64,000 nucleotides of DNA. It comes from Cepaea nemoralis. Lineage: Eukaryota > Mollusca > Gastropoda > Stylommatophora > Helicidae. The stretch lies in contig JACEFZ010022373.1 of assembly GCA_014155875.1 (NCBI GenBank), positions 76,001 through 140,000 on the forward strand, read 5' to 3'. Numbering within the stretch: position 1 is the first letter of the stretch; each line of letters starts with the position of its first letter. Positions 3,271 through 53,420 of the stretch are shown here, piece after piece. The translations under genes and the position numbers were made by a program. The notes below the pieces were generated by a model. The model was not told where the DNA came from, did not search any database, and saw only the letters and a list, made by a program, of their open reading frames with translations.

Positions 3271-3468
3271 CAAGACAAGAGAGGGCAGACCAATTTTTCT
3301 GTTTCAGATATACTAGCACAGAGGATCTGCAGGATAATTAAGTGCGAAATTACCTGTAGTCTTAATCCTATGTGAGGAGGGGAGTCACCGCTGAACATAT
3401 AATTAAGTGTAAAGATGTTGATGTAAATGAACTTCTGTTTTTTTTTCCTTTCATGTATGTATTTGATG

Positions 3469-6400
3469 GTGTTTCCACCTTGTCGTGGTGGGGGAGCTTG
3501 AGTTTCTCAATGACCCTGAGAGCTATGCCGGCGGTAGCGTAGCTACCAGCAGGGCCTCCCAAGCCGGACAGGTCCATGGATAGAGAACAGATAAAGAGAA
3601 ACACCCTGGTCCTCCAGGTTGGGGGTTGAAGCGTGGGGTTAACATCCCCACCTTTATAAAAACTATTTTGTTACGAAACGGATACATAAGCCTCGAATTC
3701 GAACTGACTTATTTGGACAACGACCTCGGAACGTTAAAGGACTCTTGAGATTTAGAACATGGAATGTACGGACACTATATCGAGCTGGAGCGGCTGAAGA
3801 ACTAACCCGGGAGCTGGTGGAAAATCAAATGGATATAACAGCAATTCAAGAAATAAGGTGGCCAGGAGAGGGTACTTTAGAGCAAAATGGAATGATTGTA
3901 ATAAACATGAATTAGGAACAGGTTTTGTCATCAAAAAAGAGTTATGGGGGAACGTTCTAAACTTTAAAGCTGTTAATGACAGAATGAGTAAATTACGAAT
4001 AAAAGGTAAATGCAAAAATATAACGATGATTAATATACATGCACCTAATGAAGAGAAAGAAGATGATATTAAAGAAGACTTTTATAATGATCTGGAAGAT
4101 GTCATAGAAGAAACCCCCAAACAGGACATCCTGATTGTGTTGGGAGACTTCAATGCAAAAATAGGTAGAGAGCAAACTCATAAAAAAGTGGCCGGTATGG
4201 AAAGCCTACATACAACTTCAAATGATAATGGATGGAGAGTCATCAACCTGGCAGAAGCCAAAAGACTGCAGATTAGCAGTACCAGACTACAAAGAAAGGA
4301 TATACACAAACAAACTTCGAGATCATGTGACAAGAGAACCTATAATCAAATAGCTCACATTTTAATTAACAACAAAAATGCATTAAACATACAACAAGTT
4401 AGAAGTTATAGAGGAGCTGAGTGCCACAGCGACCACTTCCTCGTTGGAGCAAATTTAAAATAAAACTTAAGAGAGCTTTCTATACTAAATTACAAAGATT
4501 ACACCCAACATATAACAGAGAAAAACTACAAGAAATTACAGTCTAAGAGAAATTTACAGATGAAATAAAATGTAAACTTGAAACTCTGCAAAACCCTTTG
4601 GAGGAAAGCGTTGACCAAATTTGGTTGAACATCAAGAATACAATTCAATCTACCGCAGAAGAATGTCTCGGTGTGTTAACCACGCATAGAAAGAACAGAT
4701 GGCTCAATCACAAATGTGAAGAAGCAGTCATTAGGGAGAAGAATGCCAGACATCTATGGCTAAATGACATCAACAACATCCAAAAGGAAGAATAATATAG
4801 AAATGAATGTAAAGAGGCTACAAAAATAGTTCGACAGCAGAAGCGAGAATATATGAGTAATATAATCAAAGATATGGAAACTAATCACCAGAAAAACGAA
4901 TCCAGAAAGTTTTTTAACGAACTGAAGTCAATGAAACGAGGGCACCAACACAACACATATGGTTTACAAGACAAAAATGGGATATGATAAAAACCAATGA
5001 GGAAATGTGCAACACATGGAAAGAATATTTTGTTGAATTACTAAATTGTGAAGCTCCATGTAACACTTTCCCACAGGCAGTGGTTCTAACTTGTGAACCA
5101 TAAATTGAAGAACCTGCATTTGAAGAAATCCTAAATGTAATCACACGACTTAAAAACAATAAGGCAACTGGGGCTGATGGAATTGCGGCAGAATTTATAA
5201 AGGCAGGTGGCCATGCATTACATCTAAAGCTATACGAACTAATACTAAAAATCTGGAAGACAGAAGAACTACCCCATGACTGGAAAGAGTCATTATTGAT
5301 ACCTATCTTTAAGAAAAGAGACAAGTTCCAATGTGAAAATTATATAGGAATATCACTACTGCCCACAAGCTATAAGATACTAGCCGCAGTATTACTAACT
5401 AGACTAAAACCATATTCAGAAGACATATTAGGTGACTACCAGGCGGGTGTTAGACAAAACAGATCAACAATAGATCAGATATTTATCTTTCGACAAATAG
5501 CTGAGAAAAATTGGGAATGTAAAAGAGATCTCCATAGCATTTTTGTGGATTTTAAAAAGGCTTATGATAGTGTCCCTTGGAATAGTCTATGGAATGCTAT
5601 GCAGGAATTTGGAATACCAAGGAAGTTAATCAACATGACCAGACTATGCATGGAAGATACTTATAATATAGTATCATATAAAGGCAGGACATCAGACCCT
5701 TTACAAATAACATCTGGCTTGAAACAGGGTGATGCACTATCGCCGCTACTCTTCAATCTGGCTCTAGAGAAAGTTGTAAGGAAGGTAAAGGAGGAATGTT
5801 ATATTGGAGGAACATCCAAGCTGCTTGGTTATGCAGATGATATAGATATTATAGGGGAAAATGAACAAAAGACATTAGAAATATTGACTCACTTAAAGAT
5901 GGGGCTGGTTATCAATCAAGATAAGACAGAATATATGGTAATTTCAAGAGAAGGAATAGCTAAAAACTCTGGCCACATACAAATAGATAATTTTTTTTTT
6001 GCATATCCTTTACAGGACATCGCTGTCAACACCAGCATCTTTCAGCTGGATGTTGATTTCTTGGCATGATTACGCTCAGTAGTTTGCCATTGCTTTCTGA
6101 GCGGCCGGCTCACATACCCCGTAAGTTACCGATGCGATTCGAACCAATGCTGATTCTAACCTGTCATCACATTACCGACGAGAGTATACGAGATTACGGA
6201 GAAAAGTCATAACCTCTAAGCCACGAAGCCGGCTAAATAGATAATATGATCATTAAAAGAACGGAAACATTACACATACCTGGGTACAATCTTCAACTGC
6301 TCCAACATCATAAGGGAAGAAATACATACTAGAATAAATTCTGGAAATAAGATATACTACGCACTACAACATCTACTAAAATCAAATGCGCTATTTCGTA

Positions 6401-23554: not shown

Positions 23555-23800
23555 CATGACAGAATGGTGTTAAAAGTTATTACTGCCAGAGTAAATGGCA
23601 ACGATTGCCTGCAAAATACTATTGAAAGTAGATCATTAGTTACATCTATCAGACATAGACGAACACTCTCATTTGGTCATGTGATACGAAGACACATTTC
23701 ATTACGACTGGGAAGATCAGCTGGAGATAATACAGACGGACACGAGAAGACGTGGTGCAGGATGGCTTATGTCAGCGCACAGAGAGGGGTATCATCAACA
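23555..23800 (+). mobile_element. LINE C-terminal fragment, 5' part of a split copy
   Basis: Encodes NGNDCLQ and FGHVIRR, homologous to the LINE at 42655-43075. It runs without a break into the first units of the minisatellite at 23787-25105. The 3' remainder of the LINE lies beyond the array (25105-25195). Confidence 0.8.
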
Positions 23801-25105
23801 TAACTAATAGAGAACACATAGGGGAATATCATCAATAGAACACACAGAGGAATATGATCAACAGAACTAATACAGAACACACAAGCTTATATCATCAACA
23901 GAACTAATACAGAACACACAGGGGGATATCATCAACAGAACTAATACAGAACTTCGACAGAACGCACAGGGGAATATCATCAACAGAACTAATACAGAAC
24001 ACACAGAGGGATATCATCAACAGAACTAATACGGAACACACAGGGGGATATCATCAACAGAAATAATACAGAACTTCAATAGAACGCACAGGGGGATATC
24101 ATCAACAGAACTAATACAGAAAACACAGAGGGATATGATCAACAGAACTAATACATAACACACAAGGGGATATCATCAACAGAACTAAACAGAACACACA
24201 GTGGGATATCATCAACAGAACTAATACAGAACACACAGAGGGATATCATCAACAGAACTAATATAGAACACACAGAGGGATGTCATCAACAGAACTAATA
24301 CAGAAAACACAGGGAGCTTTCATCAACAGAACTAATACAGAACTTCAACATAACGCACAGAGGATATCATCAACAGAACTAATACAGAATATACGGGGGA
24401 TATCATCAACAGAAATAATACAGAACTTCACCTGAACGCACAGGGGGATATCATCAACGGAACTAATACGGAACATACAGGGGGATATCATCAACAGAAC
24501 TAATTCATAACACACAGGGGGATATTATCAACATAATTAATACGGAACACACATGATGATATCATCAACAGAACTAATACAGAACACACAGAGGGATATC
24601 ATCAACATAACTAATACAGAACTTCAACAGAACGTACAGGGGGACATGATAAACAAAACTAATATGGAACACACAGGGGGATATCATCAACCGAACTAAT
24701 ATAGAACTTCAACATAACGAACAGGGGGGATATCATCAACAGAACTAATACGGAACAGACTAGGGGATATCATCAACAGAACGCACATAGGGATATCATC
24801 AACAGAACACACAGGGATATCATCAACATAACTAATACAGAACATACAGAGGGATATCATCAACAGAATTAATACAGGACATACAGAGGGATATCATTAA
24901 CAGAACTAATACAGAACACACAGAGGGATACCATCAACAGAACTAATACAGAACACACAGAGGGACATCATCAACAGAACACACATAGAGATATCATTAA
25001 CTGAACACACAGAGGGATATCATCAACAGAACACACAGACGGACGTCATCAACACAACTAATACATAAAGTACAGATGGACATCATCAACAGAACGAATT
25101 CAGAA
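23787..25105 (+). repeat. 37-bp minisatellite derived from LINE coding sequence
   Basis: Roughly 30-35 imperfect units of about 37 bp: GATATCATCAACAGAACT, AATACAGAAC, then ACACAGGGG. The unit matches LINE sequence at 42973-43000 (GGATATCATCAGCAGAG, TTGATCCAGAAC), which encodes ISSAELIQN. The flanks are the LINE sequences expected before and after that point, so the array is an internal expansion of one LINE copy. Some units are shortened. Confidence 0.92.
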
Positions 25106-25195
25106 CGCACAGAGGCGAGATCTGAGAAGATACGCGAAAACCCACACATTTGTCCCGTCACAAGATGATGGTGATGATGATGATGATGATGAAAT
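25105..25195 (+). mobile_element. LINE 3' end beyond the minisatellite, GAT tail
   Basis: GAGATCTGAGAAGATACGC matches the AGAGATCTGAGGAGAAC stretch that follows the repeat-unit homologue in the LINE at 43007-43025, and it is followed by a GAT microsatellite (25164-25191). Confidence 0.7.
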
Positions 25196-28100
25196 GGTTA
25201 GCGTAACAAGCGCACAATTCTTCCCGTGATTAATCGAACAATTCAAGAATTGGTGCATAGTATTGCATGTAAAGGCTCCACCTGTAGCAAGCGTCCACAT
25301 CTGTATTCACACCCAGGTACTGTAGGTAGAGATGGGACGCCAGTCTCACACTAACTCATATTACTATTTACCTGTGACAAAACCGCCGGGGCTTGGTCTG
25401 GTTTGCCACGATAGATACAATCCCCTGCCTTTGCTCCAACCACCTCAATAGCACTCTACATCTACCAGGCCCCACACAAGCCGGGACAGCTTAACCTTCC
25501 CTCCATCACCTAGGGTTCCAAACCCCAAGGGGGCTCGGACCAGACACCAGTCATATCACTGCACAAAGTCATAGCTAAGAGAACAAAAAAATTTAATTCT
25601 GAACTACATCAACCACAACACAGAGAAGGATGGCTGAAAGCCAGACTAGAAGAACTATGTACAAGATCAGCTATGCAGATGAGTATTCATCATGGAGGCG
25701 GACGATAGCTCGTGCGGTTGTCCAGTCGTGGTAGCGACTCACCCAGGCTCCTCCAGTGGACTGGAACTCCAAGGTCTGCTGCCTCTCCAAAGTTCCCTCT
25801 TCACACAGAGAACCAAGCAAGGGCTGATCAAGCGCAGTACCACTGCCTGACTGACACTGCACCGATGAACAAGGCTCCTTCCTTGCTGTCGTCCTATTTA
25901 ACTCGTCACCCTCCTGATGAAGTCTGGGCCGACCCTAGCATATTAGCGGTCTCCCACTTGCAGAAAAAGTACATGTAGCACCGTCTCAAAATACACAAGA
26001 GCCAGGTCACTCTTCTATCTCATAAGTGACCCACACATGATATGTCACCTACACAATGAGCGGTTGCTCCACACGAACACACAATGTCACTGGTAAAGTC
26101 TATTAGGTGACTATAACACTTCACCTTGATTTCATGTCCCTGGACAAATAGATCTTCACACAGTCTCATGTAACTACCCTGATCAATGGGTAGTAATCAC
26201 AACCTAGCATACACTGTCAACAGTTCACCACGATGGCATGAGGTAGCTCCCTACCTTCACAAACATTGTCAACAGTTCATCACATTGGCATGAGGTAGCT
26301 CCTACCTTAACAAACATGTCACTCTGGTGTTCCCACCAATGTTGTAATCAATGTCCTAGGTCACTGGACCACATGTTGGCTTCATAAAGGTAACCAATGT
26401 AGAAACACTATTTAAGCATCAACTGATACATGGTGTCCCATAACCCAGTCGGGCCAGAAGCAAATAACACAGGACATGGTGACCGGTATCAATGATCACT
26501 CTGCTCAACTTGAAAGGTCACTACCTTGCAATCACCAAGGTTTACACAGAGGTTGAATGTCACCAGTGCTGCACTGGCTAGAATCACCAGACGTTTCAGT
26601 GTTGGATCCTCTCAGGATCGGATGACACTCGTCGGACTCTTGACGGAGGTCCTAACCTAGACCTACCGACTTATTCAGCACTCAGCTCCTTCCAACATTG
26701 ATCTCGCAGAATCAGACGACCACTCCCAGTATGGCCTCAATCAACTTCTGGATAGGCACTGGAATGAGTGGGCCCATAGAGCTCATGGTGAAGCTCTTGA
26801 ATCTTCTTCTGTATAGTAATAACAGATCCTGAAACACGGAGAGGTTGGTGTGAGTACTCAACTACAACAAAGACTACTAGCATCTCCACCCCGTCACCTG
26901 CCTCTCAGACATTCCTCATGTCTACCAACATGAGTATGAAATCATCACATCATAGATCTACTTAGTCACTATAATATATAGGCATAATGATGGTAGAAAA
27001 AGCATAGCACACCTGTTCAGTCAAGTAACACTTCTGGGCTACATATAACCCCTAGCACCAGAGTCGACTGTATGACTCTGTCAAGCATCCTTCGCCTGGT
27101 GCCAGTCCAATCCGGTTTCATCTTCCATCATCAATCAACATATACACTTACTTTCCTTTCAGTGTAGGGATTACTGTATCGAGAAGGTGTCCAGCCGGAC
27201 ATCTCCTTCCTGACAGACTCATCAATTCATCAATCCCTTAACCCATGGACTGATCAATTACACACATTAATAACTATATGTCCATAATGAATTATACTCC
27301 TGATAATTCATTACTATAGCATTAACCAAGGAGAACTCATGACTTGTTACACTTAAATAACAAACTCATATCACAGCCATAGTGTCAGGTCTGGGATCCC
27401 TGCCCCAGATCCTGAGTTGCCCTTGTATTCACTGACTCTCTTTCAGGTCAGTCATACCTGTGCCGGTCGAGCACAGCTGTGGTGGCCATTCACCATTACA
27501 CTTTCCCACAGCTACTGTAGGTCCCGTGTACCTTGTCCCGTGACGACTTAAGTCACGTCATCCAATGTAGCAAACCTCCAGACTCCACTACCAAACTTTG
27601 ACTCCACCTTTTGGGGGGGATTATTCTTCTCATATACTACTATTTCACGGCAGTACTCCAAGTACTCCATGAACCGAATCAGGGTTCCAGAAGAGTAGAA
27701 TATTCGAGACAGACACGGTTAGGTTCAAACCTCGATCTATCTAGTCACCACGGCCTCGAATTACGGAGTGCCGCTTCACCCTCGATCGGGTATGTTCACT
27801 CGTCGGATCTGCACGATCGCATTGGGTCGGACCTATTACCTATCGGGTTGGGGGTACCGGCCTACCTCCCACTGCCTAGACAAACGTAAGATGGAACATG
27901 CACGGTCATCGTAGCGGACGGACATGACAACCAGCAGTAACTATAGTATCAGGAATACTTTCTATCAACTGTTATTCTATCGATGCAACACCATTCGGCT
28001 TACGCGGAATAACACGGCTATCTGCACACAGCAAATACACCACTGCTGATTTCACCTTGATTCCTCGAAAAATCACCACCACTGATAGAACAATTAAGTT

Positions 28101-31765: not shown

Positions 31766-32084
31766 CGATTGCAATATCGATGGCAAAGCGATCGAGGTAA
31801 CTGAAATATTTGAAAATAACTGTACACAGACTGAAGTTTACGTTCACCAAATTTCAAGAAATGTGCTTGACCTTTGTAGGATTTAATACACTTTTTATGG
31901 GTTCTGTTTTTTTTTTTTTTTTTTTTTGTCACTCTATATTTCCTTAGTGAATATAAACACGGAAGTTCATGTTTGAGACTCGCTAAGCAAGTTAGTTCAG
32001 TAATTGTTTCTTTGTTTTCTGATAGGCCGACATTTCAACAACACAGGATGGTCTGCTTCTAAATGTCCCGTAATGGATTTCGAA

Positions 32085-32640
32085 CCTTCGACTCGGTATC
32101 ATCTTCAACATCATGTGCCCTGCCAGCTGGCATAGGAGTTCATATCTCTCTATAGATCTCGGTCATTGGTGTTTTGGAACAACTCTGCTGATGATATTCC
32201 TCCATGCCACGGTTTCAGTCCATCCAGCAACAATTCTCTTGGTCTGCCTCTACTTCTCTTCCCCTCGATCTGTCTATTTTTCCCGATATTCTCCAATGTT
32301 CTCTTCTCATCACATGAGCACAGAAGCCATGTGGCTCGTTCTTATTGTTATATATAATGTTCTAGTTTCATTAACCTCTCTTAGGCAGTCGTTGTTAGTT
32401 ACTTTGGCAGTCCCGGGAATTAGCAACATTCGTCTCAGGAACCACATCTATGTTGCTTCCATGTTCTTCCTAAATTGTTCATTTACATTCCACGATTCAC
32501 TGCCATACAGCAAAACTGGTTCTATATAGCACTTCAGCACTTTCTTTCTTACATTCAGTGATAGTGACTTATTGCATAAGATACACTTCATTCGTTCCTA
32601 TTTTACCAAACTCTTAGAGACTCTATGTAGTTGTGCTTAG
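32085..32640 (-). mobile_element. LINE C-terminal fragment, antisense
   Basis: Read on the minus strand: an RKKVLKCYIEPVLLYGSESW-like block in broken frames, HVMRREHW near 32290 and a WHGGIISRV-like end near 32180. Multiple stops and frameshifts. Confidence 0.8.
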
Positions 32641-33794
32641 CCGTGTCTGTTTTACTCTATAGAGTGTAGAGACTGGTAGCTCACACTTGTGTTGAGACTT
32701 CTCGCTCCTACGTTGCTTACGCACAGGTTTCTTTCGAGCTCGATGGGGCTTTGCTACGCTACATTAAGTTCTGTGAGTGATAAATCTCCACCGCGGAACA
32801 AACAATAAAAGAATCTTCCGATAGTCAAAGGCAGTCCTCCTTCTCCAAATGTTTGGGCCCCTGTGCTCTCCTGGAACGTTCTGGTAACGAGCCCACCCGG
32901 GTAACGACTTTGGGCGTCTTTCTGCTGTCGTGGGTTCGGAACGTGTATTGACACGTTTGTTTCGTTTGCCCACGTATCACATACATTGCGTCTACTAGCT
33001 AGCCACCTCACACTAGGAGTGGAGAACTGCTCTCTGTGCTTCGTGCCCTCACACAAATTCAACCACCTTCGGCCGTGAGAACCCAACTCTTTTCTGGCCG
33101 TTCCACTCTGTCGTCGCCTCGGCATCGGTGGTTCTCTAAGCACAACAGACATCTCTACCGTCATGTTGCCTTCTTGGTTTTCTGTTCATTGCTCAAAGAC
33201 TGCACCACTGCTCTCTTCCCTGGGAAGCCAGCTCTTCCTCTGGGTCACTTGATTGCGCGCTTGAGCTTTACGAAGTCTAAATGTACCGTGAGGGCCCTTT
33301 CTATTATGGTTTTTGCATAGTCATTGCCGTAATGGTTAGTTATTCATAATGCCGCAACTATTCGTGGTTTGGTTAAATTAGGACCATTCTGGCTCATGGG
33401 TGAATCGAACATAAAACGTTATCTGTAAAAGGCAGGCGTTCTGCAGCACTAAAGTACAAGTTCTCTGGTCATAAAAACCACCCGGATGAATTATCCCTCA
33501 CAGCGACCACAACATATCTCTAATTAGATGTTTAAAAGCAAACAGACGTTTTCTTATACTGAAGAACAAAGGCAGTAAAATGCGATATATGTACTTACGG
33601 TATTCCGTAATGGCCGTGACGTGTACAATCACAATGTGATACATCTTAGCTGTCACCATTTCTGCAGCAACCTTCTGTGATATAAAACGCATTAATTATG
33701 TGGTGTATTTACTTTCAGTCTTACATACGCACAACCACAATCTAACCGACAAAATAACAGTATAAATACAGTTCATAATCATTATGTACCATTC
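32641..33794. other. Unassigned segment, LTR-like composition
   Basis: Contains AATAAA at 32806-32811 and an open minus-strand frame 33164-32754 (136 residues, Arg/Gly/Thr-rich, no recognised domain). The strand asymmetry and signal content resemble a solo LTR, but no TG...CA ends with TSD could be fixed. Confidence 0.4.
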
Positions 33795-34395
33795 AGGTAA
33801 GCGTGTTCGGTCATGTTTTACCATCTCACTCGATCACCAGAGTCGTGGATCAGCTCTGTGTTCTTGTCTCGACCATACAATGTAGTCAAACCATCCAGTT
33901 ATTTACTTCTCTGACATCCCCATTGTTCTCTCCACCTCGATCTTGCCATTTGTCACCAAGTTCTCCAATTCTTTCTTCTCATAACGTGACCAACAAATTA
34001 TGACTGCCTACGTCTAATGTCTCTAATCAGTTTACGATCTTCATTTGTTTCTTATAGGACTTGGTGCATGTTTTTTTCTGCCTGTCCATGGTATTCTTTG
34101 TATTCTCCTCTGAAACCACATTTCCACAGCCATCAAATATTTTTCAGCTTGTCTGCTCATTGTTCACGCTTCAAATCCATACAAAAATGCAGGCTCTACG
34201 TAGCATCTCAACAACTCCTTTTCTCGTAGCAATTGACATCATTTTATTGGTCAGTGTGTGTGTGTGTGTGTGTGTATTTTTTCTTCTTGCAAAAGGCTAC
34301 CTTCGCTATGGCGATTCTTGTTCTAATATCTTTAAGGCATCTCCCATCAAATGTTATGCCTGTTCCGAGATAATTGTACCGTTTCACGTAGTTCT
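33795..34395 (-). mobile_element. LINE C-terminal fragment, antisense (same family as 1-593)
   Basis: Antisense and colinear with the 1-593 fragment: AGAGTCGTGGATCAGCTCTG at its left, the FGHVMRR-equivalent near 33980, and the ECYVEPAFLYG-type block near 34180. A GT microsatellite (34252-34275) interrupts it. Frames are broken. Confidence 0.85.
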
Positions 34396-34482
34396 TAGTA
34401 AAATATAGTTAGGCTTTAACAATTAGGCGATTCCAGTCTGTTTTATGCAAACATAAGAGTTGGTGTTGAATTTGGGGATAAC

Positions 34483-34699
34483 TGAAAACTGTCATTTACT
34501 GCCAATATAGTACCTTGCGGTGTATGGCACAGGGGTCTTTGAGCCTGAGGAATTAAGGCCGCCTGGCTAGTGCAGTCGCCGCAAACTGTGCAGGTTAAGA
34601 TTTTCTTTTTTGCCCCCGACAGAAAAAAATCCCACGCCTTACCGAGGGATCGAACCCGGGAGAGTCCGACGTTCTAGCCACACGGCAAGCCGTTCCTCT
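34483..34699 (-). mobile_element. tRNA-derived SINE, family C, antisense, 12-bp TSD
   Basis: A 217-bp element with the exact 12-bp TSD TTTGGGGATAAC (34471-34482 and 34700-34711). On the minus strand the head carries A-box-like TGGCTAGAACG and B-box GGTTCGATCCC, followed by a GCGTGGGATTTTTTTCTGTC linker and a body ending in ATGACAGTTTTC. This body differs from that of the A/B SINEs. A second copy is at 36470-36715. Confidence 0.93.
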
Positions 34700-34711
34700 T
34701 TTGGGGATAAC

Positions 34712-35329
34712 AAATTTTCCAAAACAATATAAGTGACTGTGTTTTAATAATTTCAGCAAAGGATTTTTCATTCGTTAACGTCATATGATTTATAACTCTG
34801 AAGAATGCACCTGCCAAGGTGCAACAGCATAAATCATTCAATAAATCAGGCAACATATTGTGTGTAGCTTCTGTGTTAAATATAAAATATTGCAAACATT
34901 TCTTCGCAGAACTCCCTCTAGTCACGGCCAGACGACAAGCCTCGATCTATTGCCAGTTCTCTTTCCTCGTGGACCCTTATATACCAGATGTCTGTAATTT
35001 ACACGGAAAGACAGTCCCAGAAGTCGCCGATTGTAAAACACTTTAAACCTGTCACATTTCGCACTGTATCGTCCAGCATTCTCTCCCGGGAGGTCGACAT
35101 GTCCGGTCTGTATACTGGACTTTAGAGAACTTGCTCTCGCTGTCAGATTCTCTCACAATTTAAATATACATAACGAATATTGTGAGGCCAAAACGGACAT
35201 ATTGGAGTCGTGTTCTTCATTCTCCAGGTAGCTTACTCTTCCTTTCTTCCTGTCTCGTTTAACTCAGTTTCTTAAGCGGCTGGTCTATGCACACACACTA
35301 AGCTACCATAATGTGCTTTGAGAACACCA
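34712..35329. other. Unassigned spacer
   Basis: No recognised gene or repeat family. Short open frames on both strands are not conserved domains. Confidence 0.45.
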
Positions 35330-35645
35330 CACACCAGCCTTTCGAAAACACCACACAATCGCGCTTCAACAGCACGACACAATAGCGCTTCAACACCACC
35401 ACACAACCGCAATTCCACACTACCACACAACCGCGCTTCAACACCACCACACAACCGCAATTCCACACTACCACACAACCGCAATTCCATACCACCACAC
35501 AAAAGCACTTCAACACCACCACACAACCGCAATTCCACACTACCACACAACCGCGCTTCAACACCACCACACAACCGCAATTCCACACTACCACACAACC
35601 GCAATTCCATACCACCACACAAAAGCACTTCAACACCACCACTTG
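35330..35645 (+). repeat. 24-bp minisatellite with 120-bp higher-order unit
   Basis: About 13 units of 24 bp (ACACCACCACACAACCGC plus AATTCC or GCTTCA). Five variants form a 120-bp block that occurs twice. The unit length is divisible by three and lacks stops, so frames stay open on both strands; this does not indicate coding. Confidence 0.93.
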
Positions 35646-35949
35646 GTATTAACAAACTTAAGAACAGTTTCAGCCCAGTTACACTACTCTATCTGGCACT
35701 GGCAAAGATCTAGAAAAAGGTTGACCACTGAATCTACTTCCTGGCACATGTGTGTATGCGCGTAAGATGACCCCGTAGGCAGGGTTAATCAATAAATAAC
35801 ATACAACTCATCACAATACTTGACCGGAAGTCATGTGTAAAGTATGTTATTAATATATTCTTCAACTAAACCATCGACTAAACTAAACGACTAATATATT
35901 CTTTCTTCTTAAGCAGTGATCTATAGACATTGACTAATTCTTTGTACTG

Positions 35950-36390
35950 TTCTCTTGTGCGTGCGTGTATGTGTGTATAAGTTTGTATGGGCATGTGTGT
36001 GTAGGTGTGTAGGTATATGTATGTGTGTGTATGTTCGTGTATGTATGTGTATATGTTTATGTGCGTATGTGTGCATATATGCAGTGTATGCAAGGGAGTG
36101 TGTATTTGTGTGTTACTGAGAGTTTGCAGAACGGTGAATGTATGTGCAAATGATGTATGTATGCAAGTATGTATGTGTGTGTGTGTGTGTTTATAAATGT
36201 GCGTGCGTACGTGTGTCTGCCTGTCTCATAACATGGTAATATGTATTGTTTATGTTTACAAAATCCAAATGTCAATGTTGTTTTCCTAATGCACAATTGA
36301 TGAAATAAAGGTGAATGATTGGAAGGGCCGAATGTAAGACCGGGCTACGTGTCCAAGTTGTGACCTATTGAAAATAAAAAAAGATTCTTC
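35950..36390 (+). mobile_element. Dispersed repeat D, sense copy with GT-rich region
   Basis: GT-rich sequence (about 35960-36215, TGTGTATGTATG-like) runs into TCTCATAACATGGTAATATG and the D core with TGTTTATGTTTACAAAATCC, GTGAATGATTGGAAGGGCC, GTAAGACCGGGCTACGTG and AAAATAAA. The junction word TCTCATAACAT is shared with the copy at 62447. Confidence 0.7.
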
Positions 36391-36469
36391 ATTCGTTCCA
36401 TGGGCTACGTAAACAGACTAATTAATATATTATTTTCTCCTCTAAACTTGGCTTTATAAACTGACTGTC

Positions 36470-36715
36470 GCAAAACTGTCATGTACTGTCTACAGTACGT
36501 TGCCGTGTAGGAAAGAGCTGGGTGTGGAGTTGGAGTCTTGAGCCTGAGGAATTAAGGCCGCCTGGCTAGTTCAGTCTCCGCGAATTGTGCAGGTTAGGGT
36601 TGTCTTTATGCTCCCAACAGAAAAAAAAAAATCCACGCCTTACCGAGGATTTGAACTTGAGTCTCCCATTCTAGCCGCTCGGCCAGTAGCTCCTCAACAT
36701 ACAGTGTCTAATTAA
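36470..36715 (-). mobile_element. tRNA-derived SINE, family C, second antisense copy
   Basis: On the minus strand it has a better-preserved A-box (TGGCCGAGCGG) and a B-box AGTTCAAATCC, then GGTAAGGCGTGGATTTTTTT and the same body as 34483-34699. A clear TSD was not found, so the borders are approximate. Confidence 0.88.
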
Positions 36716-36779
36716 TACATGATCTTCTCTTCCACATTGGGCAACATACCGTGAATAATTAATATATTCATTTCACACG

Positions 36780-37290
36780 AAGATGCGAAGAATACCACTA
36801 AGGGATAGAAAATCCAATAAGCCAGTAAACAAAGAACCAAATGAAAATCGTAAATTGATTAGAGACATTAGTCGTAGACAGTCAAGACAACAAATGATAG
36901 GAAATCACAAATGAAGACATCAGGACAAAAGTAGGGGTTATGGCAGCGCTAGATTACATCAGAAAACAGCATATTAAATGGTTTGGTCACTTACCTAGGC
37001 TATCAACTAACAGTATACCTCAACAAGTAATGATGTAGCAACAGAAAATGCCGGCCATGTAAATGATGGACAGAGCCAATAGCAGAGTCCATGGGAATCT
37101 CGATACTTGAAGCCCACAAACGGGCACTCTCCCGCTGTTTATACATCACATCGACACCGCGAGGTACATGAGGAATATTAGTCAAGATTTGTTGGTCATG
37201 GTATGAGAAGGATAAGTTAAAAATCATTGCGGCAACTGGCAAGATTTATGGGAAGAAAGGAAGGGGAAGGCAGAGAGATAAGTACCTGTG
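36780..37290 (+). mobile_element. LINE fragment split by a nested second LINE
   Basis: Outer LINE: 36780-36887 (MRRIPLRDRKSN, NRKLIRDISRRQS) continues at 37188-37280 (RFVGHGMRR, AATGKIYGKKGRGR). Nested LINE: 36888-37179 encodes IKWFGHLPRLSTNSIPQQ and is the family of 16882-17163. The 8-bp TSD AGTCAAGA lies at 36880-36887 and 37180-37187. Confidence 0.9.
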
Positions 37291-37386
37291 TGGGGTACAA
37301 AACTCCCCAGACACCATTAGTGGGTTGACATATATCTGTGTGGGGTACAAAACTCACCAGACACCATTAGTGGGTTGACATATACC
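37284..37386 (+). repeat. Two-copy tandem repeat, ~50 bp
   Basis: CTGTGTGGGGTACAAAACTC, CCAGACACCATTAGTGGG, TTGACATATA, given twice with one or two differences. Confidence 0.92.
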
Positions 37387-37552
37387 TGTGTTTCTTTCTG
37401 TGTGTCTTCATCAATATCCGGTTTATCCCATAAGGATTATAATTATGTGGACATCCTTGACGTCATAATCGTGTGCACCATTTAGCACTTTCTTGTCAAA
37501 TTAGCGTGATCGACGTGTGGCAGTGGCTTTGAGAAGGTGGAAGTAAGGGCAC

Positions 37553-37688
37553 AGACTGAAAACTTCACCAACACCAAAGGCATTGTACAGTCACTAGGAA
37601 AGAGATATGGGCACAGTCTGTATGACACCAACACCAAAGACAGTGTACTGTCACTAAGAAATAAGTATGGGCACAGACTGTATGACAA
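37553..37688 (+). repeat. ~66-bp tandem repeat, cut by the following retroposon
   Basis: Units with ACCAACACCAAAG, TGTACAGTCACTA and TATGGGCACAGACTGTATGA. The array resumes at 38341 (AACATCACATGCATTGTACA), after the 37702-38333 insertion. Confidence 0.85.
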
Positions 37689-37701
37689 CTACCCCAACAT
37701 C

Positions 37702-38333
37702 CCGGGCCCATCCGGGGGAGCAAAGAATAGTAACACTGTTGTCTACCATGCACGTCGTAAGAGGCGACTAAGGAGGATATGGTTCCGTCGCCCTGCTTCT
37801 GAGCGAGTGCGTAGCGCGACACCGAGCTGTGAGTTTCACATGGAATGCTTTTACATCTGTCCGCGGTTGTTTGTAGCGTGAACTGCATGTTCGGAACGAT
37901 GGCGGCCGGCTGTTGGTGGATTGACTGGTTTGCCTTTTCGGCTCACCAGTGCGTTTTTCAGGAGACTCCTGAGAGTCGCCGCTGGAGCTACGGAGTTCGT
38001 GCTTTGTGCGGTGCTTTCAGCAGGTCGCCCTGCAAAAAGAGACCAAGCCATATGGGATAAAGCCCGGGCCAATGAAGTCTTTCTGATGACTGCCGTTTCC
38101 ATCGACGATGAACAGTATTTTTCGTGGGGGACTTTTGTCTTGGCATTCTGGCGGGGCGGCATTATGCACAGTGTACCTGTTCGGACTGTTGGCTTGCTGA
38201 TACACCTGTCTATTCCATTGTTCACATTAGGCAGTGAGGAGCATTTTGTGTGGTATATACTGGCATAGGAACGGAGCAATATTGGGACGGCCCGTTGCCG
38301 TGAATTTGGAACCATGACTAACTAACTAACTAA
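37702..38333 (+). mobile_element. 632-bp retroposon with CTAA tail and 13-bp TSD
   Basis: Bounded by the exact 13-bp duplication CTACCCCAACATC (37689-37701 and 38334-38346). It begins CCGGGCCCATCCGGGGG, contains CGTCGTAAGAGGCGACTAAG near 37753, and ends in tandem CTAA (38317-38333). It has no RT. A frame of 115 residues (37921-38268) is open but has no recognised domain. The tail type equals that of the I-like LINE and of the LINE at 18405-21212, so a non-autonomous passenger of such a LINE is likely (inference). Confidence 0.88.
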
Positions 38334-38469
38334 CTACCCCAACATCACATGCATTGTACAATCATAATGAAACACACTATCCATTACCTCATATCGGGAG
38401 CCGTAACGTCAACTATTTGCTCCGCCACAACGCTTGGCAGTGGAAGATGATAACGATGATGAACACCAG

Positions 38470-38690
38470 AGCAGTATAACGTAAATATAAATGGGAACAC
38501 ACTGAAACAAGTTAGACAGGACACATATCTGGGCAGTGTGTTCACAGACGATGGAAGACTGGATAGAGAAATAGAAATGAGAATACAGAAAGCAAGTAAC
38601 ACGAACAGCCAAATAACTCATGTCATAAAAGATCTTAACATCAACATGCATACAGAAAGACATTTAAGAAATCACATCTGACGTTAGTGG
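38470..38690 (+). mobile_element. LINE fragment from the end of RT
   Basis: Encodes NGNTLKQV, YLGSVFTDDGRLDREIEMR and IQKAS, the conserved block between RT palm and C-terminal domain. Short, with broken frames on both sides. Confidence 0.85.
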
Positions 38691-39404
38691 TGATTTGTTC
38701 ATCAAGATTGACGTGGTGTTTTGTCCATCCAAATTGATGATGATCATTAATTGCATCCAGTGGGGATGAAGTTGGATGAAGAATGACTTGCGCAATGAAT
38801 TGGATTAAAGTTAGAAATAGTTGCGCAATTCGTCGACCTTACAATGTCGCATGAGCCCATCTGAATCCAGTGGCAAGATAAGACGACTAGAGACGAATAT
38901 AAGTGCAGTGGATGACCAGGCCTCTCTACGTGAATGACCGTGCTCATTGCGTTCCACAAAGTTTTACAGGTAAACGCAGTCTTGCCTGTTGAATCATCAA
39001 TAAATTCTTCCTGCAGTCTGCCTAATCCTATCTTCACATGCTGGGTAGGCATATCTTAGTCCACCGATTGGTTTGACGCCGAATCGGTAACCCATGCTTG
39101 GTTTTGCCGGTCTGTCACTGCTGTTGCCCGGGATTTGGGGGAGGGGTGTCCGCTGTCGTATGCCTACAAGTCCTAGGAGCCACAGGCGTGAGATGGATGT
39201 CAGACTTGGACCTGTGGAGAATTGGCCATGAAAAGGGCGTGGCAGCCATCCGTACCATAGGTACTACCGATGTTTGTTATTTCATACCCTCCAATGATGT
39301 TAGTACAAGCAACAAGACAAACAAAACACAGACAGTTACATTTGCTTCCTTTCTGCGACGTTTCACGGCAAAATCAGTAGGACAAAAAGAAAAAGAGGAA
39401 GAAA
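38691..39404. other. Unassigned spacer
   Basis: No recognised gene. The plus-strand frame from 39098 that runs into the I-like LINE fragment is open, but its N-terminal part has no domain. Confidence 0.45.
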
Positions 39405-40129
39405 CAGAAGAGGTATGGCATCAGGTGCTACAGATGAGTCAGTGCAAGAGCTGCCAGAAGAGATCTCACATGCAGACGATGTAATTATGTACACAGATGT
39501 GTATGTGATCAGAGGTAACACGAGGAGGGGAGGGGAGTTGTATGTAAAAGGCATGGACACTGTTTAAGAACGGAGAGTGCGGCATATGCTTATAGAGGAT
39601 CTAGCTTCAGAATGAAAAAGAATAAATAGCATGGCTCCAGACGCAGACATTCAATCTGGCTTGTGTATTTAGTGACTCATTGAACATGCTCAGGAGGATA
39701 GAGATGGGGTGGGTCCGAAGAGATGGCTTCTGTCTCTGGAGGGGTCTCGGCTGGCAAATATTAGTTTCATCTTCGTGCCAGGGCATGCGGGCGTTCATGG
39801 GAATGAGCAGGATTACCGGCTTGCAGGTAGGGCTACTGTGGAAGGCGGACGAGCCATGGACCAGGCAGACATTCTGAATGCTCTAGGAGAAGCAAGTCGT
39901 TTACAAGAACCAAGCGATGACTGGGAATCTACAACCATGGTCAGACTGCGAGAACAGCAAGTTAAAAGAGGTGTGGCCAAACAAGAACACTACGCAGGAA
40001 ACAAAAGAAGAGTAATAAACTCACACAGAACTGGCGTCGTTAGCCGCTACACGCTGCGGGATTTTCTGAGGAGGGGATCCGAGCACTTATGGACTGAATA
40101 GTTCGATGTGCAACGAGGATGATCTGTCG

Positions 40130-40183
<54 letters not shown>

Positions 40184-40226
40184 ATACTAACTAACTAACT
40201 AACTAACTCACTCACTAACTAACTTT
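39405..40226 (+). mobile_element. I-like LINE 3' end (RNase H), sense, CTAA tail
   Basis: Encodes SHADDVIMYTDVYVIRG (YTDGSV degraded), SDSLNMLRRIEM and, in another frame, FIFVPGHAGVHGNE, then LRRGSEHLWTE at the stop (40098). The tail is about 90 bp of CTAA (40130-40222). Frameshifts lie near 39540 and 39700. It faces the antisense copy at 40911-42240 tail to tail. Confidence 0.9.
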
Positions 40227-40650
40227 AGAATGAACAATAAGGCCCACAGGAGCCACTCTGTGCAACACCATCTTAGGAAGCTGATGAAGACATGAAGCCA
40301 ACCATCCTGTGTGTAACCCGTGTCGGAATAGAAGCATCGGCAGCGGTGACCGCTGCACAATAATAATAACAAATGGCGCTAATTCTACAAAATGAATATA
40401 TATCAGTAGATACTTAAAAAGGCACTCTAGAAGACAATCTTTATAATAGCGTACAATCTGGAAATAACTGTTGTTGCCATCAAATGACACCCTCCATGAT
40501 TGTTCTCTCCAAACTTAACAACCATAAAAGCAAGGATGGGAGCTACTTTATGATAAACAAACTGATGTAGTGATGACTTTTTGAGATCGCCTGGAGTGTG
40601 CAGCTGAATACAGGCTATATTTTTAGGAAAAAGGGGAAAGCGTTAGGGGA

Positions 40651-40659
40651 GAGAGATAG

Positions 40660-40728
<69 letters not shown>

Positions 40729-40806
40729 ATACGAGAGAGGGGGAAAGAGCGGAAGAGAAATATACAGATAGTGGGAGAGAGAGGGGGAAAGCGTGAGGGG
40801 AGATAG

Positions 40807-40887
<81 letters not shown>

Positions 40888-40895
40888 GAGAGAGG
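40651..40895. repeat. GATA/GA microsatellite
   Basis: GATA then GA repeats in two blocks (40655-40725 and 40815-40895) with a spacer. It lies between the two convergent I-like LINE ends, and its length differs in the second duplication copy. Confidence 0.97.
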
Positions 40896-40910
40896 GAAAC
40901 GCATGTGAGA

Positions 40911-42240
40911 TTAGTTAGTTAGTCGACAGATCATCCTCATTGCACAACGAACCATTCAGTCCATAAGTGCTCGGATCCCATCCTCAGCAAATCCCGCAGC
41001 GTGTAGCGGCTCACGACACCAGTTCTGTGTTGGTTTATGAAGCTTCTTTGGCTTCCTGCGAGTGTTCGTGTCTGGCCGCCCCTCTTTTAATTTGCTGTTC
41101 TCGCAGTCTGGCCATGGTTGTAGATTCACAGTCATCACTTGGTTCTCGCAAAAGTCTTACTTCTCGTTGAGCATTCTCGTCCGACCTCCACAGTAATCTT
41201 ACCTGCGAGCTTGTCAGCCGGCTCATTTCCTTGTACTCCCGCATGCCCTGGCACGAAGATGAAACTAATCTTTGCCAGCCGAGACCGCTCCAGAGATAGC
41301 AACCATTCTCTTCGGATCCACACCATCTCTATCCTCTTGAGCATGCTCATTGAGTCGCTAAGGAAACATGCCCTAGTGAATGTCTGTGTTATTGCTTTAC
41401 TTACTGCCATGACTTCCATAGTCAGGCTACATGTGATCTCAGCAAAAGCACCAGAGTCCTCCTTTACAATTCTCCCTCCAGCCCGAGCTGTAAAGGCCCA
41501 TCAGCTTCTCACATGTCGGACGACCGACCCATCTGTGTAGATGACCGCGTCACCGTCTAGCGAATTCTCGAAAATCAACCTCTGTATTTTCTATCTAGTT
41601 GGATGCAAACTGAAAAGGATGTGCAGAAGTCTGTTGGCACTTGTACCCACTCCTCGCCAGGTTCTAAGTCCTCAAGTGAAAAACACTTGCTGAAGGATGC
41701 CTTCGGCTTCACCCATCCACGACCGTCCTCATTTTAACCTGCTGCCCTTCACCTTCATAATCTCACTATGCAGTGGACGTTGTGTGTGTACGTTAACTCT
41801 GAGGTAGGCGCGTCCTCAGCAAACTTGTATTCTCTCTTCAATGATTGGAAAATCAAGAAGGTAGCGCATCGCCCTGCATGCTGTATCTCTTGTACATCCA
41901 AGAATAATGCGCATAGCTTCATTCTGTATACTTTCCATCCTTTCTATCTGCTAACGGCTGAGAGTCAGGATTACCATCGGGTACTCAAAAAAAAACAGAC
42001 ATGACCAGCCCCTCGTAGAGAAGACATAAATGGCGCTGCTCGCAGTTTGCTGCCGCCATCACCCGCATCGCAGCCAAACCCAGCTTGGCCTTTGTTATCA
42101 CCTGGTCTATGTGCTCATTATAAGCAAGGCTTCGATCAAAACGTGTCCCCCGATAATTCATTGCCTGCGTTCATTCCACAGTCTCTGAACACAGCTTTAC
42201 AGTTGGTGATGGAGTGTTGACAATATGATTATTCAACGAG
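40911..42240 (-). mobile_element. I-like LINE 3' part (RT end plus RNase H), antisense
   Basis: On the minus strand it starts near FSLNNHIVNTPS and passes RFDRSLAYNEHIDQVITKAK. The RNase H keeps YTDGSV (about 41540), MEVMAVSKAI, LSDSMSML and FVPGHAGVQGNEPADKLA, so the catalytic set is complete. The C-terminus and TTAG (CTAA) tail lie at 40911-40925. Stops and frameshifts occur in the RT part and after RNase H. Colinear with 7553-9212. Confidence 0.9.
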
Positions 42241-42428
42241 AACATACATGCATGCCAACTGTAAAGCGTGTGGGATTGGCCAAAGGAAACACATCGTTTG
42301 CTTTCATGTACTGTAAACGCCAACGGTGAAGCATTGTACATCTTGTGCGGCTGTGCATGTGGGCTTGCGCGCGTGATCGCGTATGACCGCGTGCTCGCAA
42401 GCATGAGTGTGATCGTGCATGCGAATAC

Positions 42429-42429
<1 letters not shown>

Positions 42430-42489
<60 letters not shown>
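42430..42489. repeat. (GT)n microsatellite
   Basis: About 60 bp of pure GT. In the second copy (59390-59478) the same site is GT with an inserted CGTG array. Confidence 0.97.
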
Positions 42490-42490
<1 letters not shown>

Positions 42491-42654
42491 CGACGATGAA
42501 AGAAAGCTACTCGAAATGAAGTTCACATTTAGCTTTTATTTAGCATTTTATGAAGAATACATAAACAAATAGGACAGAGCTATAAAGTCATATCACATAT
42601 TCTTTCTATCAAATACATATATAATAATTTCCAGTTGTTTATATATATATATAT

Positions 42655-43075
42655 ATATACTGTATGGCAGGAATCTTGGAATGTAAATGAACAAATTAAG
42701 AAGCACTTAGAAGAAACATAAATGTGGTATTTGAGACGAATATTGCGAATTCCTTGGAATGCTATAGTAACTAGCAACGATTGCCTGAAAGAGGCTAATG
42801 AAACAAGAACCATATATACAACAAAAAGAAAGAGACAAACAGCTTTCTTTGGTCATGTGGTGAGAAGAGAGACATTGGAGAAAATCGTGACAACTAGAAA
42901 GATCGAAGAGCTGAGAGGCAGAGGCAGACCAAGAGAAATGATGCTGGATGGATTCAGACGGTGGCATGGAAGGATATCATCAGCAGAGTTGATCCAGAAC
43001 AAAAATGAAAGAGATCTGAGGAGAACCATGAGCGCATACGCCAGCTGGCAGGGCACTTGATAATGATGATATATA
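42655..43075 (+). mobile_element. LINE C-terminal fragment, sense
   Basis: The open frame 42722-43060 encodes MWYLRRILRIPWNA, FFGHVVRRE, RGRGRPREMMLDG, WHGRISSAELIQN and YASWQGT. The segment GGATATCATCAGCAGAG (42973-42989) is the counterpart of the 37-bp minisatellite unit at 23787-25105. A TA run (42641-42659) precedes it. Confidence 0.88.
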
Positions 43076-43119
43076 TGTTTTATCAAAAGATTTAAATAGT
43101 ATATGGCATATACTGTCTG

Positions 43120-43378
43120 TTACGGAATATCAGTCTGACTCCTTGCCTACGTCCCCGTCTGCCTACCTGCCTGTCGGTTTCTCTGGCAGTCAGTCAGCCA
43201 GTCTGTCTTTATTGCTGTCTGTTATTCTGTTAGTGTTTACTTTCATGTGTGATTCACCTACCCAGTTTATATCCATCTATCCACCCTTCCTTCTGTCAGT
43301 CCGTTAGTCCGTCAGTCTGTCTGTGCATATATGTGTCGGTCCGTACGGATGTCTGGATATCAGTTAGTCACCCACTCA
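43120..43378. repeat. Degenerate CTGT/CTGCC simple sequence
   Basis: Low-complexity sequence rich in CTGTCTGT, CAGTCAGT and CCATC, ending in a TA run that marks the duplication edge. Confidence 0.75.
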
Positions 43379-43392
43379 ATATATATATATAT

Positions 43393-45640
43393 CTAGAGTT
43401 CATGATGGGCATCTCACCCAACATCACCGGTGCTGTCCAGTGTTTCGGTGCCACCCTCTGGCACTCAGGGCATGACTTCACATACCGACGCACATCATCT
43501 GTCATTCCCGGCCAATAGTAGTGGCAGGAAATCCGCTGCATGGTGGCGGCAATACCCATGTGTCCACTTAAGGAGATGGTATGCCCCATATGAAGAATCT
43601 GGGACCGATGAGCTTTCGGGACGACCAACTGACCGTATAGGTTGTCTCCCCTTCCTGCTCTCCTGTAGAGTATCCTATTCTTCATGTAGTACTGCCCCCG
43701 TCCTGGTGGATCAGCACTTTTCTGCAGCTTTTTGTAGCAAGGACGTAAAGTATCATCCTCACTCTGGGCAGTTCGTAGCTCCCCCGGCATTGGGTTAGTC
43801 ACAATTGCGTCTGCCTCTTCCGTTTTCGTCTGAGAGCGAGTCTGCATTGCTCCCATATGGATTGGCTCCCTGGGCATTCCCAGAAAGACATACCGGCAAC
43901 CTAGGATGACTGGAAAAATGGGATCGGTCAATACAGCAGCCTTGATGGTGCCGGTGACGTACCTTGACCGAATCTCCACATTAGCAATGGGCAACTTCAT
44001 GGTTACAGCACTCTTCTGTGCAGGCTGTATATCCAATGTTTCACCTGTGAATTGTTCTGGATGTACCAGATCCGCAGAAATCACGGCCTCCCCGTCCAGT
44101 CCTGTGTCGTATAAACACTCCACTTGACGACCGTTAACCTCTACCAATTCCACTACAGGTGGTTTTTCCTGGTCTGGAGTCTCGTCCTCGGCCTCGACCT
44201 GTTCGGTGGGCTCCACCTTAGGTTTCCCTGAGCACACGACGAATTGAGTGTCTCCTGACTTTCCCCTGCAGTCAATAGCATTGGGCGTATTCGACTGACA
44301 TTGGTTGCACCATTTCCCTGTCCTAGATTTTCTATTGTCGGACTTGAATGAGCTCTCCTGGTGGCGAGCTTCCTTGTTGACCTTGGCATTTTCCGTGACA
44401 ACCTCCTTGGAAGTCACTTGACATGCTGCAAAGTGAGGGTTCTTAGCCTTCGATTTGCAGTCCCTCGTATTGTGAGAGGGTGACTTACAAATTGAACACC
44501 ACTTCTCCGACCACGGTCGTTTAGGTGTAGAGCTTGAAGTGCTCTTGCTTCCCTCCTTCTTCTTCTCTGAACTATCCTCTGATTTTTGCCCATAAGGTTC
44601 CCACTTTTTTGTTCCTGAGTTTTTGGCTTTCTTCTTGTCATGTTTCTCTTGACTTTTGGTGTTGGTTGAAAGGTTTTCCCCTACCTCCCCATGTACCTCG
44701 ACGAACCGTTCTGCTAATTTAGTCACGAGGTCAATACGTTCCGCTCCTTGTTCTCCCAGGAACGTCCTGAGAGGTTTAGACATTTGCTTCTTCAGCTGGT
44801 CGACCACCATGAGCTCTTCCAGACTCTCATAGTCATGTGCGAACCCAGCCAAATCCATCCACTTATGGAGATAAGATTTAAGACGCAAACTGTAGGCGGC
44901 AAACAACTCTCCCGGTTCTCGTTTCGCTGCTCGAAATTTTTTCCGGTAGGTATGTGACGTAACCTCGAATCGTTTCAGCAGAGCCGTCTTTAACTCATCA
45001 TAATTGTTCTCATGTCCTGGTGGCAGGCGAGTATAAACCTCGTATCCCGTCCCGCGTAATCCCTGGGATAGCTTAAGATTCCATTTGTTACGCTCCAGAC
45101 CCATAGCAACTGACATAGCCTCGAAGCGTTGAAGGTATTGGTCAATCCTCTCTTTGTCCTCCTCGTAGACCGCTAAAGGAAACTTCATAGCATGGTACCC
45201 ATGTCCACCTACTGGTGTTGATCCTGGGATGGAGGAACCTCCAACTGCTCCCTCAGTTTCTCCATTAGATTGACTCTTCAACTCGAGTTCCCTCATCCGG
45301 TACTCGTGCTCCCTTTTCTGTGCTTCCTGTTCAGCTTCTAATTTCCTAGCTGCTTGCTCAGCTTCAAATTTCCTAGCTGCTTGCTCAGCTTCCAATTTCC
45401 TAGCTGCTTGCTCAGCCTCCAATTTCCTAGCTGCTTGCTCAGCTTCCAATTTCTTAGCTGCTTGCTCAGCTTCCAATTCCATCCTTCTCAATTCCAGCTC
45501 GGCCTTTCGATCTTCCCTTTCTGCTTGACGATACTCTCTCTCTCCACTTCCTGTATGTAATCCGTTAGAGCAGACCCAGCCAATCCCATTTCTTCCTCCC
45601 TTGCCTTTAATTCTGCGGTGCTAAGTTTAGGGGTGGCCAT
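43393..45640 (-). pseudogene. Ty3/Gypsy Gag-protease-integrase(N-terminal) ORF, truncated
   Basis: The gag start ATG is at 45640-45638. A 1-nt frameshift in a GA run near 45540 separates it from a frame open from 45491 to 43368. In order: 9-residue Glu/Ala/Lys coiled-coil repeats (KLEAEQAAR), the Gag capsid-like region, a zinc knuckle CSICKSPSHNTRDC, a second knuckle lacking its His, a protease-like YDTGLDGE, a linker MQTRSQTK, then the H2C2 integrase zinc domain (GHMG...YYWPGM...CPECQ). It is cut right after GEMPIMN, where the TA run begins. Integrase follows protease with no RT between: either Gmr1-type gene order or a deletion. RT, RNase H and the other LTR are absent. Confidence 0.88.
45340..45480 (-). 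repeat. 27-bp tandem repeats in gag (coiled coil)
   Basis: Five to six repeats of the 27-bp unit for KLEAEQAAR, with heptad-like Leu/Ala spacing, predicting a coiled coil at the Gag N-terminus. Confidence 0.9.
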
Positions 45641-48650: not shown

Positions 48651-49035
48651 CGAACACAATGATATACACAACATCGCGATTGAATTAAGTAAACTTGTTA
48701 AAATATTCAAAAATCGAGAGAGCATGTGAAGACACAAAGCGATCGAGGTAACTGACATATTTGAAAATAACTGTACACAGACTGAAGTTTACGTTCACCA
48801 AATTTCAAGAAATGTGCTTGACCTTTGTAGGATTTAATACACTTTTTTATGGGTTCTGTTTTTTTTGTGTTTTTTTTTGTCACTCTATATTTCCTCAGTG
48901 AATATAAACACGGAAGTTCATGTTTGTGACTCGCTAAGCAAGTTAGTTCAGTAATTGTTTCTTTGTTTTCTGATAGGCCGACATTTCAACAACACAGGAT
49001 GGTCTGCTTCTAAATGTCCCGTAATGGATTTCGAA

Positions 49036-51344: not shown

Positions 51345-51431
51345 TAGTAAAATATAGTTAGGCTTTAGCAATTAGGCGATTCCAGTCTGTTTTATGCAAA
51401 CATAAGAGTTGGTGTTGAATGTGGGGATAAC

Positions 51432-51648
51432 TGAAAACTGTCATTTACTGCCAATATAGTACCTTGCGGTGTATGGCACAGGGGTCTTTGAGCCTGAGGA
51501 ATTAAGGCCGCCTGGCTAGTGCAGTCGCCGCAAACTGTGCAGGTTAAGATTTTCTTTTTTGCCCCCGACAGAAAAAAATCCCACGCCTTACCGAGGGATC
51601 GAACCCGGGAGAGTCCGACGTTCTAGCCACACGGCAAGCCGTTCCTCT
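51432..51648 (-). mobile_element. SINE family C, antisense (copy 2)
   Basis: Counterpart of 34483-34699. The left TSD has one substitution (TGTGGGGATAAC) while the right one is unchanged (51649-51660). Confidence 0.92.
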
Positions 51649-53342: not shown

Positions 53343-53420
53343 CATTCGTTCCATGTGCTACGTAAACAGACTAATTAATATATTATTTTCTCCTCTACAC
53401 TTGGCTTTATAAACTGACTG

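Follow-up and report, generated by a model that had tools for sequence, protein, structure and literature searches.

The window analysed here, the whole stretch of 64,000 nucleotides from Cepaea nemoralis, contains at 23776-25114 a tandem array, a minisatellite whose 37-bp unit is repeated some 36 times and which has since decayed. Its host is an old, 5'-truncated copy of a LINE that runs from about 23568 to the end of a GAT tail at 25192. The first-pass annotation had placed a 37-bp minisatellite inside a LINE copy at 23555-25195, a span that proves correct to within about 15 bp. The features of the locus are as follows.

23568-23775, forward strand: left-hand remainder of the LINE copy, with C-terminal coding sequence that stops where the amplified stretch begins; its 5' end at about 23568 is a truncation (nhmmer)
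23776-25114, forward strand: 37-bp minisatellite, about 36 units in 37-, 26- and 48-bp forms, corresponding to model columns ~313-353 (TRF, unit decomposition, nhmmer single-unit matches)
23776-23784, forward strand: CGCACAGAG at the left end of the array, with a copy at 25106-25114 (read from the sequence)
25106-25114, forward strand: CGCACAGAG at the right end of the array (read from the sequence)
25115-25163, forward strand: right-hand remainder of the LINE copy, corresponding to the 3' end of its reading frame (nhmmer match 25075-25177; matrix score 17.1 at 25107)
25164-25192, forward strand: GAT tail of the LINE (TRF)

Tandem Repeats Finder (TRF) reports the 37-bp array as 23778-24782 plus 24802-25115. 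Decomposition into units gives 43 rows. Of these, 29 are close to 37 bp long, six measure 26 bp and one 31 bp; the other seven are partial pieces, among which are several 11-bp inserts that generate the 48-bp forms of the unit. The consensus unit is CACACAGGGGGATATCATCAACAGAACTAATACAGAA, and the six 26-bp units are without CTAATACAGAA. The number of units had been put at 30-35, slightly fewer than the 36 or so found here, and a looser count of the core ATCATCAACAGAA allowing up to three changes gives 41. A head-to-tail unit of this length lies within the 10-100 bp expected of a TE-derived minisatellite. Units differ from the array consensus by 8.2% on average (10.8% for the first three, 7.1% in the interior and 14.4% for the last three). 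Neighbouring units are more similar than distant ones, but not significantly so (r = 0.14; 276 of 5000 permutations were as high), and for the interior alone r = -0.003. Stepwise local duplication has therefore left no clear trace in this array. The pair of CGCACAGAG sequences at its ends is a candidate for the direct repeat of the first duplication, and may be either a cause or a consequence of the array.

The unit matches the stretch of the LINE that encodes ISSAELIQN at 42973-43000, as had been proposed. We mapped the locus onto two models of the LINE, a first profile built from four unexpanded copies in the window, and a second model made from 40 LINE pieces with the locus of the window array left out. 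On the first profile the left side (23582-23817) occupies columns 109-351 (E = 1.3e-18), and the right side together with the last unit (25075-25178) occupies columns 318-422 (E = 4.8e-5). Between the flanks there are 22 single-unit matches with E < 10, all lying at columns 313-359. The locus-excluding model gives the same arrangement, with nhmmer placing 23568-23818 at columns 92-351 (E = 1.7e-27), the array units at columns ~313-353, and 25075-25177, again including the last unit, at columns 317-417 (E = 7.5e-7). The unit is thus homologous to a segment within a TE, and in other insertions of that TE the segment occurs once.

The two flanks differ in the strength of their match. The left flank gives a pairwise local alignment score of 141, compared with a maximum of 45 in 200 shuffles. 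The right flank scores 41 against a shuffle maximum of 43, which is at chance level, and when it was aligned globally with two LINE copies 36 and 20 of 2000 shuffles equalled or exceeded the observed score. A matrix of the 59 columns that follow the unit, allowing one indel, scores 17.1 at the predicted place, 25107. None of 191,814 shuffled positions reached 17.0 (the maximum was 16.9), and every place in the window with a score above that at 25107 is another copy of the LINE. The same 59 columns used alone as an nhmmer profile gave only E = 3.1 at the expected place, and nhmmer with very short stretches gave no matches. LINE sequence is therefore present in order on both sides of the array, the right side being significant by profile and matrix but not by pairwise alignment.

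The first-pass annotation had described LINE sequence to the left and right of the array followed by a GAT tail, and the profile matches fall in just this order. It had named a lack of colinearity in the flanks as the observation that would tell against its interpretation; the flanks are colinear with the LINE, and the interpretation stands. Since left flank, units and right flank all map in order to a model from which the locus was excluded, we take the sequence to confirm that the array was born inside the LINE copy.

By reading, a run like the GAT tail is present on 10 of 19 other LINE 3' ends inspected. AATGGT occurs at 23563-23568, immediately before the LINE begins, and again at 25193-25198, directly behind the GAT tail, and by eye this may be a 6-bp target-site duplication. 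The end branch of the host copy is 0.52 changes per site, compared with the mean unit divergence of 8%, the placement of so long a row being unsure. On these figures the host copy seems to predate by far the differences between its units.

There are nine other near-full-length matches to the LINE in the window, or six after merging segmental duplicates, and none of them contains an array. Unexpanded copies include the following.

42658-43070, forward strand: unexpanded copy, the reference of the first-pass annotation (nhmmer)
59658-60070, forward strand: unexpanded copy, segmental duplicate of 42658-43070 (nhmmer)
32101-32516, reverse strand: unexpanded copy (nhmmer)
49052-49467, reverse strand: unexpanded copy, segmental duplicate of 32101-32516 (nhmmer)

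The duplicates belong to a tandem segmental duplication (31784-43392 and 48735-60392) with an offset of about 17 kb and 98.1% identity over 11.7 kb. Within it a diverged LINE piece spanning columns 185-299, at 37180-37391 and in duplicate at 54135-54346, is followed by a 50-bp two-copy repeat. Elsewhere in the window, a 27-bp repeat of 5.5 copies (45331-45478) lies in a 750-amino acid open frame with gag-like, SCAN and H2C2 zinc-finger matches, and is a repeat inside a retroelement coding region. At 63512-64000 TGTA is repeated 122 times with a 99% match, running past the end of the window.

Among the best 120 of 6506 protein relatives of the LINE, the named organisms are the gastropods Plakobranchus, Elysia and Bradybaena. 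The named relatives among these 120 are labelled endonuclease-reverse transcriptase or jockey-like by their sources, and our model covers only the 3' end of the element (the last ~420 bases). Three C-terminal pieces of the LINE matched no Pfam family at E ≤ 0.001, and Rfam returned nothing in the window at gathering score. In viral contigs the LINE peptide pattern gave five matches with no confirmed relative, and there was no exact copy of the array unit.

We searched the whole genome, 3.47 Gb in 26,579 contigs. A two-unit query, for which all counts are lower bounds, returned the window array and two further loci at ~80-82% identity, both of which are arrays inside copies of the same LINE. 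An unrelated satellite with a better match to the unit had been suggested as a possible refutation, and none was found. Nor did this query reveal any free or dispersed array of the 37-bp unit. Satellite DNA would have the same unit in arrays at other loci, and what was found was the window locus and the two LINE-borne arrays. The claim of satellite birth is therefore upheld as the birth of a minisatellite from LINE coding sequence, but not as that of a spreading satellite. On this evidence the 37-bp repeat appears to be a minisatellite at one locus, with no spread as a free satellite seen.

Arrays in other copies of the LINE were sought by pattern. A pattern that pairs two LINE motifs at the spacing of a tandem repeat had 776 matches, the first 100 being listed (contigs up to C4926); the reversed pattern had 230, so that the total carries some background. 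For a motif lying ~120 columns upstream of these, near column 200, there were 133 matches, the first 100 again being listed, compared with none when reversed. We took 20 loci from the pattern lists, four later ones and two from the two-unit query, making 26 loci with 27 array rows; pattern matches at C3343, C4670, C7360 and C13958 were left out.

In the main table of 24 array rows, including that of the window, LINE sequence lies on both sides in order in 16, counting L054, whose left LINE piece is only ~25 columns long. It is found on one side only in five (L009b, L051, L057, L058 and L059) and on neither side in three (L048, L052 and L055). No LINE flank was found for the 50-bp arrays of L048 and L064 or for the 56-bp array of L052. 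One later locus, L063, has three perfect 20-bp copies with LINE sequence on both sides. Copy number ranges from two (L049, L053 and L060) to 88 (L010). L060 and L061 are identical over 1901 bp, and L057 and L058 represent a single locus that has been duplicated; as duplicates these were not counted as separate births. L009 carries two LINE-born arrays about 600 bp apart, at 1171-2096 and 2714-4225, with units of 41 and 36 bp, opposite orientation and different register. At 2264-2701 in L050 a 49/83-bp array lies beside the 56-bp array, with weak LINE matches at columns 388-412 (E 0.08-0.8), and here amplification may also have affected the extreme 3' part of the LINE reading frame.

The amplified stretch differs from locus to locus. 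In arrays with LINE on both sides the unit spans columns 179-228, 183-222 and 192-225 in the upstream part; 283-337, 285-336, 297-364, 298-338, 299-346, 300-342 and 301-340; and 305-359, 318-353, 319-357 and 320-356. With L063 included, the both-sided arrays give 15 pairs of start and period, reduced to 12 once any that differ by no more than 4 columns and 2 bp are treated as one. Merging groups the register of the window array with those of L009a and L045, and because these are so close a shared breakpoint cannot be distinguished from a recurrent one at those two loci. Some registers recur at different loci, namely 30 bp (L054, L056 and others) and 56 bp (L046, L050 and L051). The non-LINE flanks differ among the loci, except for the duplicates L057/L058 and L060/L061 and other short shared repeats. 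A tree of the 3' parts of the LINE (177 columns) is mostly unresolved and star-like with long end branches; it shows no array-bearing clade and no sign of a single array-bearing ancestor, 177 columns being too few to exclude one. Given at least 12 clearly different registers, we conclude that the births were recurrent. It is likely that one parent LINE in one genome has given rise to at least 12 independent births in different registers, extending from a first duplication to arrays of ~3 kb, with junctions that can be read directly and on which the direct-repeat model can be tested statistically.

If duplication occurred by slippage at short direct repeats, adjacent matches to the model should overlap at the junction. 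We examined 17 collapsed registers, dropping L050, L051, L052, L054, L055, L057 and L058 (for repeat of a register or want of flanks) and keeping L009b, L048 and L059 despite their lacking one or both LINE flanks. An overlap of at least 4 bp was observed in eight of the 17; among 600 duplications simulated from copies in the window the proportion was 13% (p = 0.0007, one-sided binomial test). Variants of the test gave 7/16 (p = 0.002) and, with near-identical registers merged, 6/13 (p = 0.004) or 7/13 (p = 0.0005). A rank test on all 17 registers was not significant (p = 0.085), while one on 11 arrays with clean flanks, chosen after seeing the data, gave p = 0.005. Nine registers have homology of 3 bp or less, among them that of the window array (median overlap -3 by model). 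Individual junctions vary. At L046 the repeat is 12 bp long and has a single mismatch. At L060 the junction script gives 4 bp and the model 5; at L049 the script gives 0 and the model 5 bp, with AAGAC visible to the eye. Exact values from the script are 2 bp for L053 and 1 bp each for L041, L047 and L054; that for L043 is unusable. The excess of junctions with at least 4 bp is consistent with slippage at short direct repeats.

As background we sampled 80 kb at eight set places away from arrays on the array-holding contigs. The sample contains 15 LINE matches with E ≤ 1e-4, none having an internal array, and 10 tandem arrays (period 20-100, at least five copies) that cover 7.5 kb, one being T-rich and of low complexity. 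None of the 10 overlaps a LINE match. In L071 and L068, 10-kb samples away from arrays, there are minisatellites of up to 60 copies. These arrays point to a high general rate of minisatellites in the C. nemoralis genome, in which LINE copies would be one substrate among many.

Colinear LINE sequence on both sides of the array, unexpanded copies, many registers and two- and three-copy stages at other loci are all observed, and we infer an order of events in which insertion came first, a mechanism of slippage or exchange in DNA, and an absence of function. A 5'-truncated LINE copy with the (GAT)n tail of its family would have inserted at the locus long ago. Strand slippage or an unequal exchange, acting between direct repeats that were short and similar, would then have doubled some 37-39 bp of the copy's C-terminal coding sequence in situ. 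Growth would have followed by further slippage, including that of multi-unit blocks of ~85 and 122 bp, as well as by the gain or loss of 11 bp between internal ACAGAAC repeats. Many other copies of the LINE, in a genome prone to minisatellites, would have undergone this process independently. We consider this account as a whole highly probable. For the founding step, the junction overlap tests and examples make either slippage or unequal exchange at short homologies the most likely origin.

The array might instead have been present already in the LINE RNA, or have been made by template slipping during reverse transcription, and so have been inserted with the copy. The arrays examined fall within the final ~420 bases of the element, which are copied first and are the only part modelled, and the human survey suggests, in the portion available, that retrotransposition may help to start TE-derived repeats (PMC3389668). 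Moreover L009a and L045 have registers near that of the window array, and the 30- and 56-bp registers recur at several loci. Yet registers vary by locus, being of at least 12 kinds, the units have diverged much less than the host copy has, and no array-bearing clade is seen in the mostly unresolved tree. We therefore regard such an origin as improbable, while a two-copy start at reverse transcription followed by growth in DNA may have occurred. It is extremely improbable that the array is an unrelated minisatellite, whether one with a chance likeness to the LINE or one that came to lie within it. Such an origin would accommodate the weak pairwise DNA alignment of the right flank alone and the poor E value of the 59-column profile, but not the mapping of flanks and units in order onto one model built without the locus, nor the shared layout of arrays in other copies.

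A further proposal concerns the position of the births, with columns 280-360 of the LINE a true hotspot above the general rate of the genome. Raw totals of 776 tandem matches for the motif in that region and 133 for that near column 200 point this way, as do the 13 of 17 compared registers lying within columns 279-364. However, the loci were picked by motifs in those same two stretches, giving a biased sample, and the motifs are unequal in length and allowed letters. Their reversed controls differ (230 against 0), large arrays yield many matches each, and the counts are not normalised to copy number. With the sample chosen by motif we set the hotspot aside as improbable.

The sequence from which a minisatellite grew has often disappeared, but in this family the parent can be recognised in many sister copies and two- and three-copy stages remain visible. 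One LINE family with many independent junctions would offer a proper test of how TE-derived repeats start. Taken alone the window array is ordinary, and the recurrence is a useful natural experiment rather than a new kind of thing. Among the titles and abstracts listed from a partial coverage of the literature, we found no account of the present LINE family. PROsat, Pvc20 and chicken HinfI, which are LINE-derived satellites, have larger units and wide arrays. They derive from L1 ORF2 (PROsat and Pvc20) and from the 3' UTR and partial ORF2 of CR1 (HinfI), so that, like the window array, each has a unit that is at least partly LINE coding sequence; in the available part of the source they are listed as satellites, whereas the window array is a single-locus minisatellite (PMC9659126).

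Minisatellites born from TEs are a known kind in the accessible parts of two sources (PMC3389668, PMC6947457), and what is added here is recurrence within one LINE family. In the Haber and Louis model of 1998, as given in the available text of a review that also lists TE-born arrays, repeats of 5-10 bp on either side of a motif allow it to be duplicated, through slippage or through unequal exchange, before it expands (PMC6947457). The window array has CGCACAGAG at both ends, possibly as a product of the array itself. Unlike in the model, homology of at least 4 bp is present at only about half of the registers here, and the rest would need shorter microhomology or none. The human survey, in its available portion, traces 7,276 minisatellites and satellites to TEs, 601 of them to L1 outside the L1PA group; 300 of the 7,276 are flanked by direct repeats of 5-20 bp, and known starting mechanisms account for only 6% of the TE-derived repeats (PMC3389668). 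Like the human Alu, L1 and ERV minisatellites described there, the present arrays are short internal stretches amplified in place, mostly at single loci; they differ in belonging to a LINE family of another animal, with many arrays from one short coding stretch and up to 88 copies (PMC3389668). The Ogre-derived satellites of Lathyrus likewise involve tandem repeats inside a retrotransposon, which in Ogre were the seeds of longer arrays; on the part of that account available, the repeats lie in the 3' UTR of an LTR element and gave rise to satellites, whereas those described here lie in the coding sequence of a dead LINE (PMC7004042).
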